DNA of 44,223 nucleotides from Bacillus sp. (in: firmicutes) (GTDB taxonomy: Bacteria; Bacillota; Bacilli; Bacillales; Bacillaceae), in contig JAPSLL010000031.1 in the NCBI GenBank assembly GCA_031180805.1, positions 2,022 to 46,244 on the forward strand. The letters run 5' to 3'. Positions 8,744 to 18,214 of this stretch are shown here, piece by piece (the first letter of the stretch is position 1; every line of letters begins with the position of its first letter). The notes beneath the pieces are model-generated. The model was not told the origin of the DNA and made no database searches. It saw only the letters and a list, made by a program, of their open reading frames with translations. A program made the translations under genes and the position numbers.

Positions 8744-9076
8744 TTATTTATTTGTATCATTCTTAAGCTTCCATTTATTAAATTCTAAGAACTCCCGAAA
8801 TTGTTCTTTAGATACACCGGATTTCATGGCATCTTGCACTAATTTCGTCCATTCATAGTCTAGTTCATTTGAGTCATTTTCATTTTCATCTAGAAGCACA
8901 TTTACAGACACTCCTAGCACTGCAGAAACTTTTTCTAAAAATTGAACAGAAGGGTTGGATTGGAGATTGCGTTCAATGGAACTAAGATAAGATTTTGCAA
9001 CTCCTGCTCTTTCTGCTAGTTCAGATAATGATAAATTTTTCTGTGTCCGATATTTTTTTATTCTAGGACCAATCAC
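8744..9076 (-). CDS. sinR: Biofilm master repressor SinR
   Basis: DNA-binding repressor of matrix genes, 110 aa, full length for the family (111 in B. subtilis). Residues 1-66 are an XRE-type helix-turn-helix domain (KNLSLSELAERAGVAKSYLSSIERNLQSNPSVQFLEKVSAVLGVSV), almost identical to SinR in the recognition helix. The C-terminal hook (LDYEWTKLVQDAMKSGVSKEQFREFLEFNKW) is the tetramerisation and SinI-binding part. The start is GTG with AAGGTGA upstream. sinI lies immediately upstream in the same orientation. SinR binds GTTCTYT, and several such sites occur in this window. Confidence 0.95.
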   Translation of the reverse strand: MIGPRIKKYRTQKNLSLSELAERAGVAKSYLSSIERNLQSNPSVQFLEKVSAVLGVSVNVLLDENENDSNELDYEWTKLVQDAMKSGVSKEQFREFLEFNKWKLKNDTNK

Positions 9077-9175: not shown

Positions 9176-9322
9176 CTATTTAGAAGGGTGTTCTGCTTTT
9201 GAAAAAAACTCTTTTATTTCCTCGATACTAATTCCTAGCTCGAGAGCTTCTAAAATCATTTCAACCCATTCACGGTCTAATTGTCCATCCTTTTTAATTT
9301 TATCAATAAGCTCACTATTCAA
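9176..9322 (-). CDS. sinI: SinR antagonist SinI
   Basis: A 48-aa gene with a TTG start behind a strong AGGAGGGG site. The central segment DREWVEMILEALELGISIEEIKEFF is the SinI helical hook, which mirrors the SinR C-terminus (EWTKLVQDAMKSGVSKEQFREFL) and binds SinR to remove it from DNA. The stop lies 99 bases before the sinR start, as in a sinI-sinR operon. The leader holds a c-di-GMP-I riboswitch whose aptamer ends about 30 bases before the start codon, with a Spo0A box further upstream. Confidence 0.9.
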   Translation of the reverse strand: MNSELIDKIKKDGQLDREWVEMILEALELGISIEEIKEFFSKAEHPSK

Positions 9323-9350
9323 TATGTACCCCTCCTAAAATACTTTGATG

Positions 9351-9437
9351 TATTCCAGGCAGTCCAGCCGTCATAGTATGTACGATACATTAGACCTGTG
9401 ACTTTGCGTCCCAATTTTTCAATAGGTTTGCCTTTAT
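9351..9437 (-). ncRNA. c-di-GMP-I riboswitch (GEMM-I aptamer) in the sinI leader
   Basis: Read on the minus strand (9437 to 9351), the conserved GEMM-I elements appear in order: AAAGGCAAACC, a short stem capped by a GAAA tetraloop, GGGACGCAAAG, the tetraloop-receptor arm CACAGGTCTAA, a variable hairpin (TGTATCGTACATA), then ATGACGGCTGGACTGCC closing P1 with GGCA. The 3' end lies 28 bases before the sinI start. A small AATAC/GTATT hairpin precedes AGGAGGGG, so control may act at ribosome binding rather than at a clear terminator. Whether c-di-GMP turns sinI on or off cannot be read from the sequence. Confidence 0.9.
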
Positions 9438-9663
9438 CTGTTCATATTAACGTTTTCATTATATAAATCAAAAGTCCTCTGTAGTAATAGACTTTTTGAC
9501 TACAATCTCTATTATAAAAATTAATTTTCAGAATGTTTGTTGATTGATGTCGATGGAGTGAAATTTTATTATTCTTCGTCATTTGTAATCTATTTGTAAT
9601 AATACATAGGTATTTATACTCAAAATAACGCTAAAAATCAGTTATTGTTATGGTGATTTAAGG

Positions 9664-9711: not shown

Positions 9712-9718
9712 TGTCGAA
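9712..9718. promoter_or_regulatory. Spo0A box upstream of sinI
   Basis: TGTCGAA is an exact 0A-box core. In B. subtilis sinI transcription is controlled by phosphorylated Spo0A, so the position between yqhG and sinI is what the family context predicts. It is about 390 bases from the sinI start, rather far, because the riboswitch leader intervenes. I could not assign the sinI -35/-10 boxes. Confidence 0.45.
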
Positions 9719-9774: not shown

Positions 9775-9805
9775 GAAAAAATAGCAATTGGAAGTCCAAC
9801 TGCTA
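9775..9805 (-). terminator. Intrinsic terminator after yqhG
   Basis: On the minus strand TAGCAGTTGG, a 4-base loop, then CCAATTGCTA followed by TTTTTT. The ten-base stem lies just after the yqhG stop. Confidence 0.85.
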
Positions 9806-9812
9806 CTTGAAG

Positions 9813-10613
9813 TTACTTAAAAATAGCATTTTGAGTTAGAAAGAAGATCCCGCCGTTTTGGATATTAATATGAATATGTGGTTCATATAGTTCACGTAAT
9901 GCTTCTTTTTCTAATGTATAACAATCTGGCTTTTCCTCAATGTCCTCATAAAAATGATCTAGCAGCTTTAGGTCATCTTCCCACCTTTTTCTCGCTGAAT
10001 CAGCCCATGAATGATCCTGACTTTTAACATATTGTTCAATGAATTGTTCAATTCTTTTTAACCCACTTTGTGGTTTGATTAATGGAGTCATTGTAAAACA
10101 AAAGTCAGGTATTTTTGGTGTTAGTTTAAGTTTTTCTAATTTCTCTTGGAAACCCTCTACAAGTGTCCCACTAACTAAATGTAGACCAATTGAATGAATT
10201 TCGTCTTTTTTCATATCACACTGATAGGAAACGATGATATTTACACTGATCCAGGGTTGTAAAGCAATGTTTCCGTTATTTACATGTTCAACTTTTTCGT
10301 ATAAGCGGATAAAGCTACCTAACCGTTTTGTTGCTTGAAAGATTTGATGAAGCCGTGGTGAGCCAAAATGCATAAATTCACCCTTTAAATCGGGAGGTGC
10401 TTTTTGTTTATCTGTAATAAATGTTAGTTTCATTGGGTTAGGTATACCGTTTGTTTTTTCAAGGTAATGCCAATAGAATGGACGATTCATTAGCTCCTTA
10501 TCCATTTCTATCGTAAGTTGCACTGTTAAGTAACCAGGGTTATTTTCTATTAGTTCACAGGAGTTAGCATTGAAAAAACTTTCAAGAAAGCTGTGTATCT
10601 TTTGTTGTTCCAT
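9813..10613 (-). CDS. yqhG: Conserved hypothetical protein YqhG
   Basis: A 266-aa soluble protein of the Bacillus YqhG family, recognised by sequence and by its position between yqhH and sinI. No catalytic motif is visible. The N-terminus (IHSFLESFFNANSCELIENNPGYLTVQLTIEMDKELMNRPFYWHYLE) and several PHI and LHLVSG segments are family features. The product starts at ATG, 22 bases downstream of yqhH on the minus strand, so the two form an operon. Its link to the helicase is unexplained. A terminator follows the stop. Confidence 0.85.
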   Translation of the reverse strand: MEQQKIHSFLESFFNANSCELIENNPGYLTVQLTIEMDKELMNRPFYWHYLEKTNGIPNPMKLTFITDKQKAPPDLKGEFMHFGSPRLHQIFQATKRLGSFIRLYEKVEHVNNGNIALQPWISVNIIVSYQCDMKKDEIHSIGLHLVSGTLVEGFQEKLEKLKLTPKIPDFCFTMTPLIKPQSGLKRIEQFIEQYVKSQDHSWADSARKRWEDDLKLLDHFYEDIEEKPDCYTLEKEALRELYEPHIHINIQNGGIFFLTQNAIFK

Positions 10614-15238: not shown

Positions 15239-15305
15239 TGTTTAATGCGATGTGATAAATTTAATCAGAAGATTTAATAGAGAGATAGAACAAGGAGTTG
15301 TTACA

Positions 15306-16094
15306 ATGACTGTTGTTACAGAGCAAAAGATGGAACTAAATGTAGAAAAGTTAAATAAAGATATTTCTGCATTTCCACAAGTCCATCCTATAACAGATGA
15401 TATGAAGTTGACCCATAAAGGTGTATCAAGGCTAGTTATGCTTGATCGTTATACGTTTAAGGATACAGAGAAGATTACATTATCTGAAGGGGATTTTGTT
15501 GTTTTAACAATAAAAGAGGATCCTAAGTTTCCTGCACGTGGACTTGGATATATTAAAGAAATTGATTGGGAAACGAAAACGGCAAGTGTACTAGTTGAAG
15601 AAGAGTATCGCCACTCACTAGATAATCCTGAGGAAGTTGAAACAGGAATTGTGAAACGCTCTTTAGACGTCATTGAAAAACCACTTGAAATCTATTACGA
15701 ACAAATTGCAAAACGTAATGCGACAGGATTGGCATCGGTAGAAAAAACGGAAGCAAAGCGTAAAGAATGGTTTGAAAAGTTTTATCAAGAGCTAGTGAAT
15801 TTGAATTTTATCCCAGCTGGACGTGTCTTATATGGAGCTGGGGCAGGAACAGATGTGACGTATTTTAACTGTTATGTTATGCCATTTGTAAAAGACTCTC
15901 GTGAAGGAATTTCCGAACATCGTAAACAAGTAATGGAGATTATGAGTCGTGGTGGTGGAGTTGGAACAAATGGTTCAACATTGCGTCCACGAAATACACT
16001 TGCACGTGGTGTAAATGGTAAATCGTCTGGTTCGGTATCTTGGTTAGATGATATTGCTAAATTAACACATCTTGTTGAGCAAGGTGGTTCCCGT
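15306..16094 (+). CDS. nrdJ: Class II (adenosylcobalamin) ribonucleotide reductase NrdJ, exon 1
   Basis: N-terminal 263 residues of the B12-dependent reductase that makes deoxyribonucleotides. ATG 15306 has CAAGGAG eight bases upstream; the ATG at 15252 lacks a site. This exon holds the N-terminal region and the start of the catalytic barrel: NFIPAGRVLYGAGAGTDVTYFNCYVMP, then SRGGGVGTNGSTLRPR and HLVEQGGSR. It ends on a complete CGT codon at 16094 and a TAA follows at once in the unspliced RNA. The product continues at 16448 with RGAQMIMLADWHPD, restoring the conserved GGSRRGAQM motif. Confidence 0.93.
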
Positions 16095-16447
16095 TAAATC
16101 TTAAATCCACACGGCGGGAATAAAATCTCGTGAATTGCTGGAACACCCTAAAGATTCATCAACCACAACGTGACTGGCAACAGTGACCGTGAAGGTTTGA
16201 AAATGATGAATATAATTAATGGGCAATCAGCAGCGAAGCATCTTAGGAAACTAAGATGAACGTTCAGAGACTATCGAAAGTACCTACGTTTGTACAATAA
16301 GGTATGAGTAGATCAAAAGAAGAAATTCTTTTGAGGTACGAGACAGGGAGTGAATATTCCTTGATGATATAGTCCGAACTCATGTGAAAGCATGAGAGTT
16401 AGGCAGAAATGACCTAACCCCTCTAAAGAATGAGGAGTAACAAATTG
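16095..16447 (+). ncRNA. Group I self-splicing intron in nrdJ (353 nt, no ORF)
   Basis: Conserved core elements appear in order: P (AATTGCTGGAA, 16133-16143), Q (AATCAGCAGCG, 16225-16235), R (GTTCAGAGACTATCG, 16262-16276) and S (GATATAGTCCGAAC, 16366-16379). P7 forms from GACTAT (16269-16274) and ATAGTC (16369-16374). P1 pairs exon TTCCCGT (16088-16094) with GCGGGAA (16114-16120), giving the obligatory U-G pair at the splice site. P10 pairs exon CGTG (16448-16451) with CACG (16110-16113). P9-type hairpins are at 16379-16396 and 16398-16418. The last intron base is G. Splicing joins codons in phase 0. No homing endonuclease is encoded. Confidence 0.95.
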
Positions 16448-18214
16448 CGTGGTGCACAGATGATTATGCTTGCAGATTGGCATCCGGATATCATCGAATT
16501 TATTATTTCAAAAATGCAAAATCCTAGAATTTTGCGCTATTTAATTGAAAATACAAAAGATGAAGCAATTAAGAAATATGCCCAAGATAAACTAAAGTTT
16601 ACCCCGTTAACTCAACAAGAAATCGATATGTATCAGGGTATTGTTAATTACAAACAAATACCTGGAACTGGTGGATTCAGTGAAAAAATCATTAAAGAAG
16701 CGGAATTAAAGCTTCGTACGGGTGGAACATATAGTGTTCATAATCCAGAGTTTTTAACTGGGGCTAATATTTCAGTTACTTTAACAAAAGATTTTATGGA
16801 TGCTGTTGAAAAGGATGCTGAGTATGAACTACGTTTCCCAGACGTAGAAAGCTACGATGAAGAGAATATGAAAGCCTACAATGAAAATTGGTATAAAGTC
16901 GGAGATGTTCGTGAATGGGAAAAGCAAGGATATAAAGTTCGTACGTATCGTAAAATTAGAGCAAGAGATTTGTGGAATCTAATCAACATATGTGCAACGT
17001 ATTCTGCAGAACCAGGAATTTTCTTTATTGATAATGCGAATGATATGACAAATGCAAAAGCATATGGTCAACAGGTTGTAGCAACGAATCCATGTGGTGA
17101 ACAACCACTTGCTCCATATTCTGTTTGTAATTTAGCAGCGGTAAATTTAGCTGAAATGGCGAATAAGGAAACAAAGACTGTAGATTTTGAAAAATTAAGA
17201 AAAACAGTTGAAATCGGAGTTCGCATGCAGGATAACGTCATTGATGCAACACCTTATTTTTTACCTGAAAACAAACACCAAGCACTTGGTGAACGTCGTG
17301 TAGGTTTAGGTGTAATGGGGTTACATGACCTACTTATTTACTGTGAGACGGAATATGGTTCTGAAAAAGGTAATGAGTTAGTTGATAAAGTATTTGAGAC
17401 AATCGCGACAACTGCTTATCGTGCTTCTATTGAATTAGCGAAAGAAAAAGGTAGTTTTCCTTTCTTAGTCGGTGAAGAAGGGGAGACAACACGTCTTCGT
17501 GAAGCATTTACTCAAACTGGATTTATGAGTAAGATGCCTGAAGATATTCGTGAAGGTGTTAAACAATATGGTATTCGTAACTCTCATTTGTTAACAGTTG
17601 CTCCAACAGGTTCTACAGGAACTATGGTTGGCGTGTCAACAGGATTAGAGCCATATTTTTCATTCTCATATTTCAGAAGCGGTAGATTAGGGAAATTTAT
17701 TGAAGTAAAAGCAGATATTGTACAAGAATATTTAGATCGACATCCTGAAGCTGATCCAAATAACTTACCATCATTTTTTGTATCTGCAATGGAATTAGCT
17801 CCTGAAGCGCATGCCGATGTACAATGTGTAATTCAGCGTTGGATTGATAGCTCGATTAGTAAGACGGTAAATGCTCCTAAAGGATATACTGTTGACCAAG
17901 TTGAAAAAGTATATGAGAGATTATACAAAGGTGGAGCTAAAGGTGGTACCGTTTATGTTGACGGTAGCCGAGACACACAAGTATTAACATTAAAGGCAGA
18001 AGAAAATACATTTGACGATGTCGAAGATGTTGACACTAAGGAAAAAGGGAAGGTTGTATTAGTAGATACAATCAATGACCTTCGTTCCACTGATGTTACA
18101 ATCGGTAATGAAGTAGGGAATACATGTCCGGTTTGTCGAGAAGGTACAGTCGAGGATTTAGGCGGATGTAATACTTGTACTAGTTGTGGTGCCCAATTAA
18201 AGTGTGGCTTATAA
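16448..18214 (+). CDS. nrdJ: Class II ribonucleotide reductase NrdJ, exon 2
   Basis: C-terminal 588 residues of NrdJ; the spliced protein is 851 aa. It holds the active-site loop ATNPCGEQPLAPYSVCNLAAVNL with the catalytic Cys, a phosphate-binding loop APTGSTGTMVGVSTG, and a C-terminal zinc-ribbon-like tail with Cys in CPVCREG, CNTCTSCG and LKCGL that may re-reduce the active site. The ATG at 16430 is intronic, so it is not a genuine start. A strong terminator follows. nrdJ is monocistronic here and convergent with nothing. Confidence 0.93.
   Translation, partial: RGAQMIMLADWHPDIIEFIISKMQNPRILRYLIENTKDEAIKKYAQDKLKFTPLTQQEIDMYQGIVNYKQIPGTGGFSEKIIKEAELKLRTGGTYSVHNPEFLTGANISVTLTKDFMDAVEKDAEYELRFPDVESYDEENMKAYNENWYKVGDVREWEKQGYKVRTYRKIRARDLWNLINICATYSAEPGIFFIDNANDMTNAKAYGQQVVATNPCGEQPLAPYSVCNLAAVNLAEMANKETKTVDFEKLRKTVEIGVRMQDNVIDATPYFLPENKHQALGERRVGLGVMGLHDLLIYCETEYGSEKGNELVDKVFETIATTAYRASIELAKEKGSFPFLVGEEGETTRLREAFTQTGFMSKMPEDIREGVKQYGIRNSHLLTVAPTGSTGTMVGVSTGLEPYFSFSYFRSGRLGKFIEVKADIVQEYLDRHPEADPNNLPSFFVSAMELAPEAHADVQCVIQRWIDSSISKTVNAPKGYTVDQVEKVYERLYKGGAKGGTVYVDGSRDTQVLTLKAEENTFDDVEDVDTKEKGKVVLVDTINDLRSTDVTIGNEVGNTCPVCREGTVEDLGGCNTCTSCGAQLKCGL

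Follow-up and report, generated by a model that had tools for sequence, protein, structure and literature searches.

The window analysed here (44,223 nucleotides of a Bacillus sp. contig, JAPSLL010000031.1, positions 2,022 to 46,244) carries a sinI-sinR locus on its minus strand, with a riboswitch aptamer in the sinI leader. Read 5' to 3' on that strand, the locus comprises:

9813..10613 (-), yqhG, a conserved neighbour upstream of the sinI unit (PF11079, E 2e-124)
9779..9808 (-), terminator-like stem after yqhG, parting it from the sinI unit (1 found, 0.1 expected)
9712..9718 (-), Spo0A-box-like TTCGACA upstream of the leader (exact motif match)
9355..9442 (-), c-di-GMP-I (GEMM-I) riboswitch aptamer (RF01051, 80.7 bits, E 1.9e-14)
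9438..9440 (-), 5' strand of P1 (CAG; located by reading the sequence), a helix of 3 bp in this genome
9358..9359 (-), C92-C93 in Vc2 numbering (from the sequence); the anti-SD hairpin starts at C92
9334..9359 (-), expression platform hairpin CCUGGAAUAC-AUCAAA-GUAUUUUAGG (10/10 pairs)
9331..9336 (-), Shine-Dalgarno (SD) sequence AGGAGG of sinI, 8 nt before the TTG start (from the sequence)
9176..9322 (-), sinI, 48 aa, TTG start (ORF; PF08671 42.3 bits, cut-off 31.4)
8744..9076 (-), sinR, 110 aa, GTG start (HTH_3 and SinI domain PF08671; 1b0n_A)

SinI/SinR is a textbook case of a biofilm switch, known mostly from work on B. subtilis. The 48-codon ORF after the aptamer, named sinI in an earlier sequence-only reading of this DNA, does encode a SinI domain scoring above the PF08671 cut-off, and the surrounding arrangement is that of SinI/SinR, with PF08671 in both proteins, HTH_3 in SinR, and sinR next after sinI. 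The sinR protein matches SinR chain 1b0n_A over residues 1-104 (E 4.9e-43); the window SinI matches chain 1b0n_B with E 6.9e-05, ranking behind two designed repeat chains. Elsewhere in the window a group I intron (RF00028, 68.9 bits, 16061-16396 (+)) lies between ORFs 15252-16097 and 16430-18214, which we take to resemble a cobalamin-dependent ribonucleotide reductase gene split in two.

Upstream of the leader, the motif TTCGACA, which we take to be a Spo0A box, is found exactly in 17 of 18 riboswitch-sinI loci of the window's genus, approximately 265-295 nt before the aptamer GGC, with 18 sites in all where mononucleotide shuffles give 0.56. Conservation of this box indicates that sinI transcription probably also depends on Spo0A, in which case sinI would answer to two inputs, and suggests a division in which Spo0A sets sinI transcription and c-di-GMP sets its translation. 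SinR boxes upstream of sinI, searched for as GTTCTYT (the motif we assume for them), gave no signal (2 found, 2.0 expected), and sigma-70 promoter sites for sinI numbered 4 on both strands against 4.3 expected, so that no call is possible.

The window's own genome has 13 GGDEF matches, 12 EAL matches (11 above cut-off) and two PF12389 (TasA-like) genes; genes for the signal and for the matrix are therefore both present. A GGDEF-EAL domain pair lies about 5 kb from the two PF12389 genes (G000:C42:95407-102693). A further c-di-GMP-I riboswitch (L008, G000:C60:58630-58710) is situated approximately 1 kb upstream of another GGDEF-EAL pair (59764-60993), an arrangement that suggests feedback. Three tandem pairs of c-di-GMP-I riboswitches occur on contigs C59, C67 and C92 (L003-L007, L009), every aptamer of which precedes a terminator-like stem as judged by eye.

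The c-di-GMP-I aptamer of the sinI leader

The sequence-only reading had placed a GEMM-I aptamer on the minus strand and proposed the RF01051 covariance model as a check. In a cmscan of the whole window that model matches 9355-9442(-) over its full length (1-87/87), scoring 80.7 bits (gathering score 35), and all of the aptamer motifs named in that reading fall within the aligned stretch. Its measurements needed adjustment: the gap from aptamer to sinI, given as 28 bases, is 32 (Rfam match end at 9355 to start codon at 9322), or 35 when counted from the last conserved aptamer C (9358), and its interval of 9176-9437 covers sinI but omits the first 5 nt of the aptamer match.

Contact numbering here follows Vc2, and the choice of which window C equals C92 is, like the exact numbering of the contacts, our assumption. 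The window aptamer contains the contact motifs GGC, GCAAA and GCC, and the GAAA tetraloop on P2 is present in the RF01051 alignment, its receptor being judged only via the full-length match. Published accounts of c-di-GMP-I aptamers, in the parts of their text available to us, name G20, A47 and C92 as ligand contacts (PMC4744006, PMC11218506), and for Vc2 report that C92 touches the ligand and that P1 is required for binding (PMC9262584, PMC4744006). Across 67 SinI-anchored aptamers detected by covariance model, G20 is invariant and C92 is kept in 64, the other 3 having U. P1 has 3 bp in the window; among the 76 class A leaders defined below, 4 of 4 pairs form in 55, 3 in 20 and 2 in 1. Alignment A2 holds 60 of 88 distinct aptamers, those from pattern loci having been chosen by GGCAAA and GCC, such that invariance at those letters is partly the result of selection. 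These results confirm that the sinI leader of the window bears a c-di-GMP-I aptamer, and its conserved contact bases lead us to infer that the leader would bind c-di-GMP.

Expression platform and predicted direction of switching

In the window, C92-C93 together with the 3' strand of P1 form 10/10 pairs with a segment that runs into the SD and stops after its first AGG, this being the only part of AGGAGG within the stem. The earlier suggestion of translational control, made because the ribosome site lies right after the aptamer, gains from this hairpin, which includes the start of the SD. For positions 9323-9360 the predicted folding energy is -11.1 kcal/mol (z -3.57), a stability reached by 2 of 200 dinucleotide shuffles.

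The design was followed through 105 leaders, located without regard to the hairpin and reduced to 100 distinct by removal of 5 duplicates. A folding rule assigns 76 of the 100 to class A, with the hairpin following the aptamer (70 of the 100 have 9 or 10 of 10 ungapped pairs), and 15 to class B, in which the SD can be masked by the 5' strand of P1 (e.g. CUCUCC or CCUCC), leaving 9 with neither design. The same rules applied to leaders with shuffled middles return 23% A, 10% B and 67% other; the class thresholds behind these counts were fixed after the leaders had been seen, replacing an earlier, looser rule that gave 88/100 as A. The mean U:SD energy of class B is -10.0 kcal/mol, low in part because the rule demands -6.5, and shuffles of U attain the observed values in 177 of 3000 cases for class B vs 7882 of 15200 for class A. 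The fit of own P1 partners beats all 1000 permutations (mean 3.70 of 4 vs at most 3.63).

The class A stem hardly varies, and its loop varies freely. In alignment A3, built from 57 of 60 class A references (L245, L256 and L285, with unusual hairpins, were excluded), 98.2% of stem cells are paired, partly by selection since only class A leaders are included. In the stem, 33 one-sided substitutions keep the pair, most of them by giving G-U, 10 pairs are broken and two-sided changes do not occur, compensatory change being almost absent because the anti-SD stem is nearly invariant. Concerted change is visible in L076, where AUUG, CAAU and AAUUGG replace UCAG, CUGA and UUUAGG with 9/10 pairs kept, and in L288 and L329, where UCAA occurs with UUGA.

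With P1 forced in the fold, the SD is unpaired with a mean probability of 0.74 in class A, up from 0.36 (gain >0.1 in 69/76, at most 0.1 in 7), and of 0.62 in class B, up from 0.16 (gain >0.1 in 13/15, at most 0.1 in 2), a rise that is partly built in, because a forced P1 removes pairing partners. The window leader goes from 0.39 to 0.79. The model, which has ligand, tertiary contacts and cotranscriptional timing outside it, prefers the hairpin over P1: forcing P1 costs on average 9.2 kcal/mol in class A and 6.2 in class B, and given the class A value switching has to draw on one or more of these outside factors. Unpaired probability of the SD averages 0.33 across the riboswitch leaders (n=100, 89 of them below 0.6) and 0.58 across aptamer-less sinI leaders (n=44, 22 below 0.6), the latter being the 44 of 50 loci with a usable sinI start and including at least 5 leaders of genus g2 that keep the hairpin.

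The sinI leader thus contains an anti-SD element that, judging by its pairing and modelled folds, would exclude the bound aptamer. We propose that without ligand C92-C93 and the 3' strand of P1 would pair with GUAUUUUAGG, holding the start of the sinI SD in a helix; with c-di-GMP bound, C92 would contact the ligand and P1 would close, opening the lower part of the hairpin and exposing the SD. More SinI would then titrate SinR and derepress matrix genes. In class B the 5' strand of P1 would mask the SD instead, and bound aptamer and masked SD would likewise be incompatible. Because P1 and SD masking are mutually exclusive in both classes, c-di-GMP should turn SinI translation on, and we consider it likely that this c-di-GMP-I riboswitch acts on the anti-repressor SinI as an ON switch of translation; we infer both its direction and its effect on SinR targets.

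Opposite behaviour, in which c-di-GMP binding stabilises the masked form and lowers SinI, has a precedent in Vc2, termed a translational OFF switch in the available text of PMC9262584, and a residual hairpin beside the SD does persist in the window fold with P1 forced. We nevertheless regard it as unlikely, since the masking helix uses C92 and the 3' strand of P1, so that bound aptamer and mask exclude each other, since class B leaders arrive at the same logic through the other P1 strand, and since forcing P1 cut SD exposure by more than 0.1 in only 1/76 class A and 0/15 class B leaders. It is also conceivable that the riboswitch works mainly through mRNA stability, Rho or transcription, with the hairpin as a stability or processing element. 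Transcriptional control would be the local habit, as a terminator-like stem (by eye) follows each of the genome's other eight c-di-GMP-I aptamers (8/8); the sinI platform departs from that norm, the window showing no terminator-like site in the interval from aptamer to sinI. The start codon, by the start rule used, lies 20-44 nt after C92 in 100/100 leaders and the stem ends in the SD, which together make a transcript-level mode quite improbable as the main one.

A last alternative concerns the ligand, which might be another cyclic dinucleotide such as cGAMP. GEMM-I aptamers of the cGAMP type carry A at position 20; the SinI-anchored aptamers have G there in 67/67, and the window itself is labelled RF01051. 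Such cGAMP-type aptamers do exist (pilM; available text of PMC9262584), and 19 of 37 relatives bear the clan label RF03167 (c-di-GMP-I-GGC) instead of RF01051. RF01051 outscores RF03167 at the one place compared (L046, 78.3 vs 73.3 bits), and a different ligand appears very improbable. The RF03167 label as a sign of altered ligand was rejected on that score, together with the intact contact bases; which of the two clan labels is assigned would appear to be decided by E-value.

Distribution across the order

Rfam scans of the DNA after yqhG from 100 genomes gave a c-di-GMP-I clan match in 37 of the 100 loci. A small SinI ORF adjoins yqhG in 43 of them (L051 has SinR only), and the riboswitch is present in 37 of these 43 (38 of 44 including the window), the six without it being L019 and five loci of genus g2. 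After yqhG the riboswitch is lacking in 56 of 60 loci from other families; a reading of this as absence was rejected, and the search was re-anchored on SinI, because those 56 loci have no SinI-domain ORF adjoining yqhG.

A SinI profile search found SinI-like matches in 114 of 159 genomes of the order. The resulting SinI-anchored sample (110 loci, 89 genomes and 35 families, among the matches listed) was searched with a purpose-built covariance model, R1, which detected an aptamer in 66 of the 110 loci, corresponding to 63 genomes and 26 of 35 families among the matches listed; this count includes the weak aptamer of L299 (35.7 bits), without which the families number 25. A SinR-like HTH occurs within 900 nt downstream in 30 of the 66 riboswitch loci and in none of the other 36, hence sinI genes that lack a neighbouring sinR are served by the riboswitch too, and such orphans may be controlled in the same way. 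The sinI aptamers of L122, L132 and L137 (Rossellomorea and a Bacillus sp. record) have a P3 insertion of ~40-75 nt; the long-P3 aptamers of Rossellomorea were detected with R1.

Specificity of the platform was gauged with a platform-only pattern, consisting of a class A platform with aptamer letters limited to GCC, scanned over named-species genomes. It occurs at 113 places, and in 113/113 a SinI-like ORF, by a SinI profile built from yqhG-anchored SinI only, starts 2-22 nt after the SD. The genera among 80 listed records include Metabacillus, Peribacillus, Rossellomorea, Sutcliffiella, Gracilibacillus, Sediminibacillus, Weizmannia and others. R1 detects an aptamer at 102 of these places (90/100 and 12/13), and at 99 of them it ends flush with the pattern; of the non-flush matches, L165 and L170 show both aptamer halves with a long P3 (by eye), and that of L207 lies 81 nt away. 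The 11 pattern loci without an R1 match are L123, cut by a contig end, and ten with an eroded leader of B. pumilus type (L121, L124, L144, L146, L156, L157, L166, L182, L185, L224), in which the platform is intact and the P2 hairpin is gone, GACGCAA is still legible, and GGTCTTA is so in most.

Bacillus proper (genus g2; leaders L050, L052-L055 and L341-L360) presents the hairpin without a detectable aptamer. The hairpin is recognisable upstream of sinI in 25/25 leaders, all of which match the 3' portion of the leader profile, where the hairpin lies (nhmmer E 9e-8 to 0.025); a loose hairpin pattern is matched in 24 of them, L355 carrying a variant, and a SinI-like ORF is present in all 20 of the 25 that were checked for it. 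R1 run with filters off on all 25 yielded no credible aptamer (best 9.0 bits, E 0.52), nor did an aptamer-only profile on 5 of the 25. The SinI of the g2 genome L052 is very similar to SinI chain 1b0n_B, which we take to be from B. subtilis, over all 57 residues (E 2.6e-31). In B. subtilis-like leaders the base at the C92 position is G, e.g. GGACUGGCUGAAAUAC, and the g2 leader L055 is closely similar to the B. pumilus leader L121.

In our reading, Bacillus proper has lost the aptamer and kept the platform; repeated gain in other groups would be the less simple account. On the wider proposal, that direct c-di-GMP control of SinI translation is common and probably ancestral in the order, and that the B. 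subtilis clade is the exception, having lost the aptamer and kept the anti-SD hairpin, perhaps under a new leader input, we find ourselves evenly divided.

Relation to known systems

If the proposed control is correct, c-di-GMP reaches the SinI/SinR switch in one RNA step in 26/35 sampled families (among the matches listed), combined in the window's genus with a conserved Spo0A box, and the B. subtilis-like sinI leader is a riboswitch remnant, the present role of whose hairpin is directly testable. The two anti-SD designs with the same logic would amount to a natural experiment in riboswitch evolution. The sequence-only reading knew of no such sinI wiring in B. subtilis, and a direct c-di-GMP input was likewise not encountered in the literature searched, a search whose coverage ended short of subscription journals and preprints and in which no statement was found of the anti-SD hairpin, the ON mechanism or the order-wide reach.

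The wiring itself is not wholly new, as it is already in print for one species at the annotation level. A table based on RNA-seq and Rfam lists a c-di-GMP riboswitch in the sinI 5' UTR of Bacillus methanolicus MGA3 (PMC4342826), the same wiring as in the window; in the part of that source available, the entry is an annotation without platform, sign, distribution or mechanism, whereas the present work supplies a platform and a predicted sign. In B. thuringiensis 407, overexpression of a diguanylate cyclase was accompanied by higher expression of sinI and spo0A, according to the available text of PMC7793685.

Among characterised GEMM-I riboswitches, as described in the accessible portions of the respective papers, Vc2 of Vibrio cholerae resembles the window aptamer in being translational, with P1 central to switching, but is described as an OFF switch (PMC9262584), whereas the sinI riboswitch is predicted to be ON. 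Vc1, a GEMM-I aptamer upstream of gbpA, is similar in that reporter expression drops with lowered c-di-GMP; it has no apparent anti-SD or terminator (PMC4744006), in contrast to the conserved anti-SD hairpin of the sinI leader. Bc1 and Bc2 are GEMM-I aptamers of a Bacillus relative, B. thuringiensis, and Bc2 is called an ON switch (PMC11218506). For Bc1 the platform upstream of mcpE is long and includes two terminators, and Bc2 precedes cap, whereas the window aptamer precedes sinI, a name absent from that text. In Paenibacillus, a SinR-like XRE gene has an antisense c-di-GMP-I riboswitch, which likewise ties this aptamer class to a SinR homologue; that riboswitch is antisense to the repressor, whereas the one described here is in cis, in sense orientation, to the anti-repressor (PMC9943018, available text). 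Relative to these systems, what appears to be new is that the translational platform is conserved and its sign predicted to be ON, that its distribution is wider than in the papers found, and that B. subtilis-like species have an apparent remnant of it.
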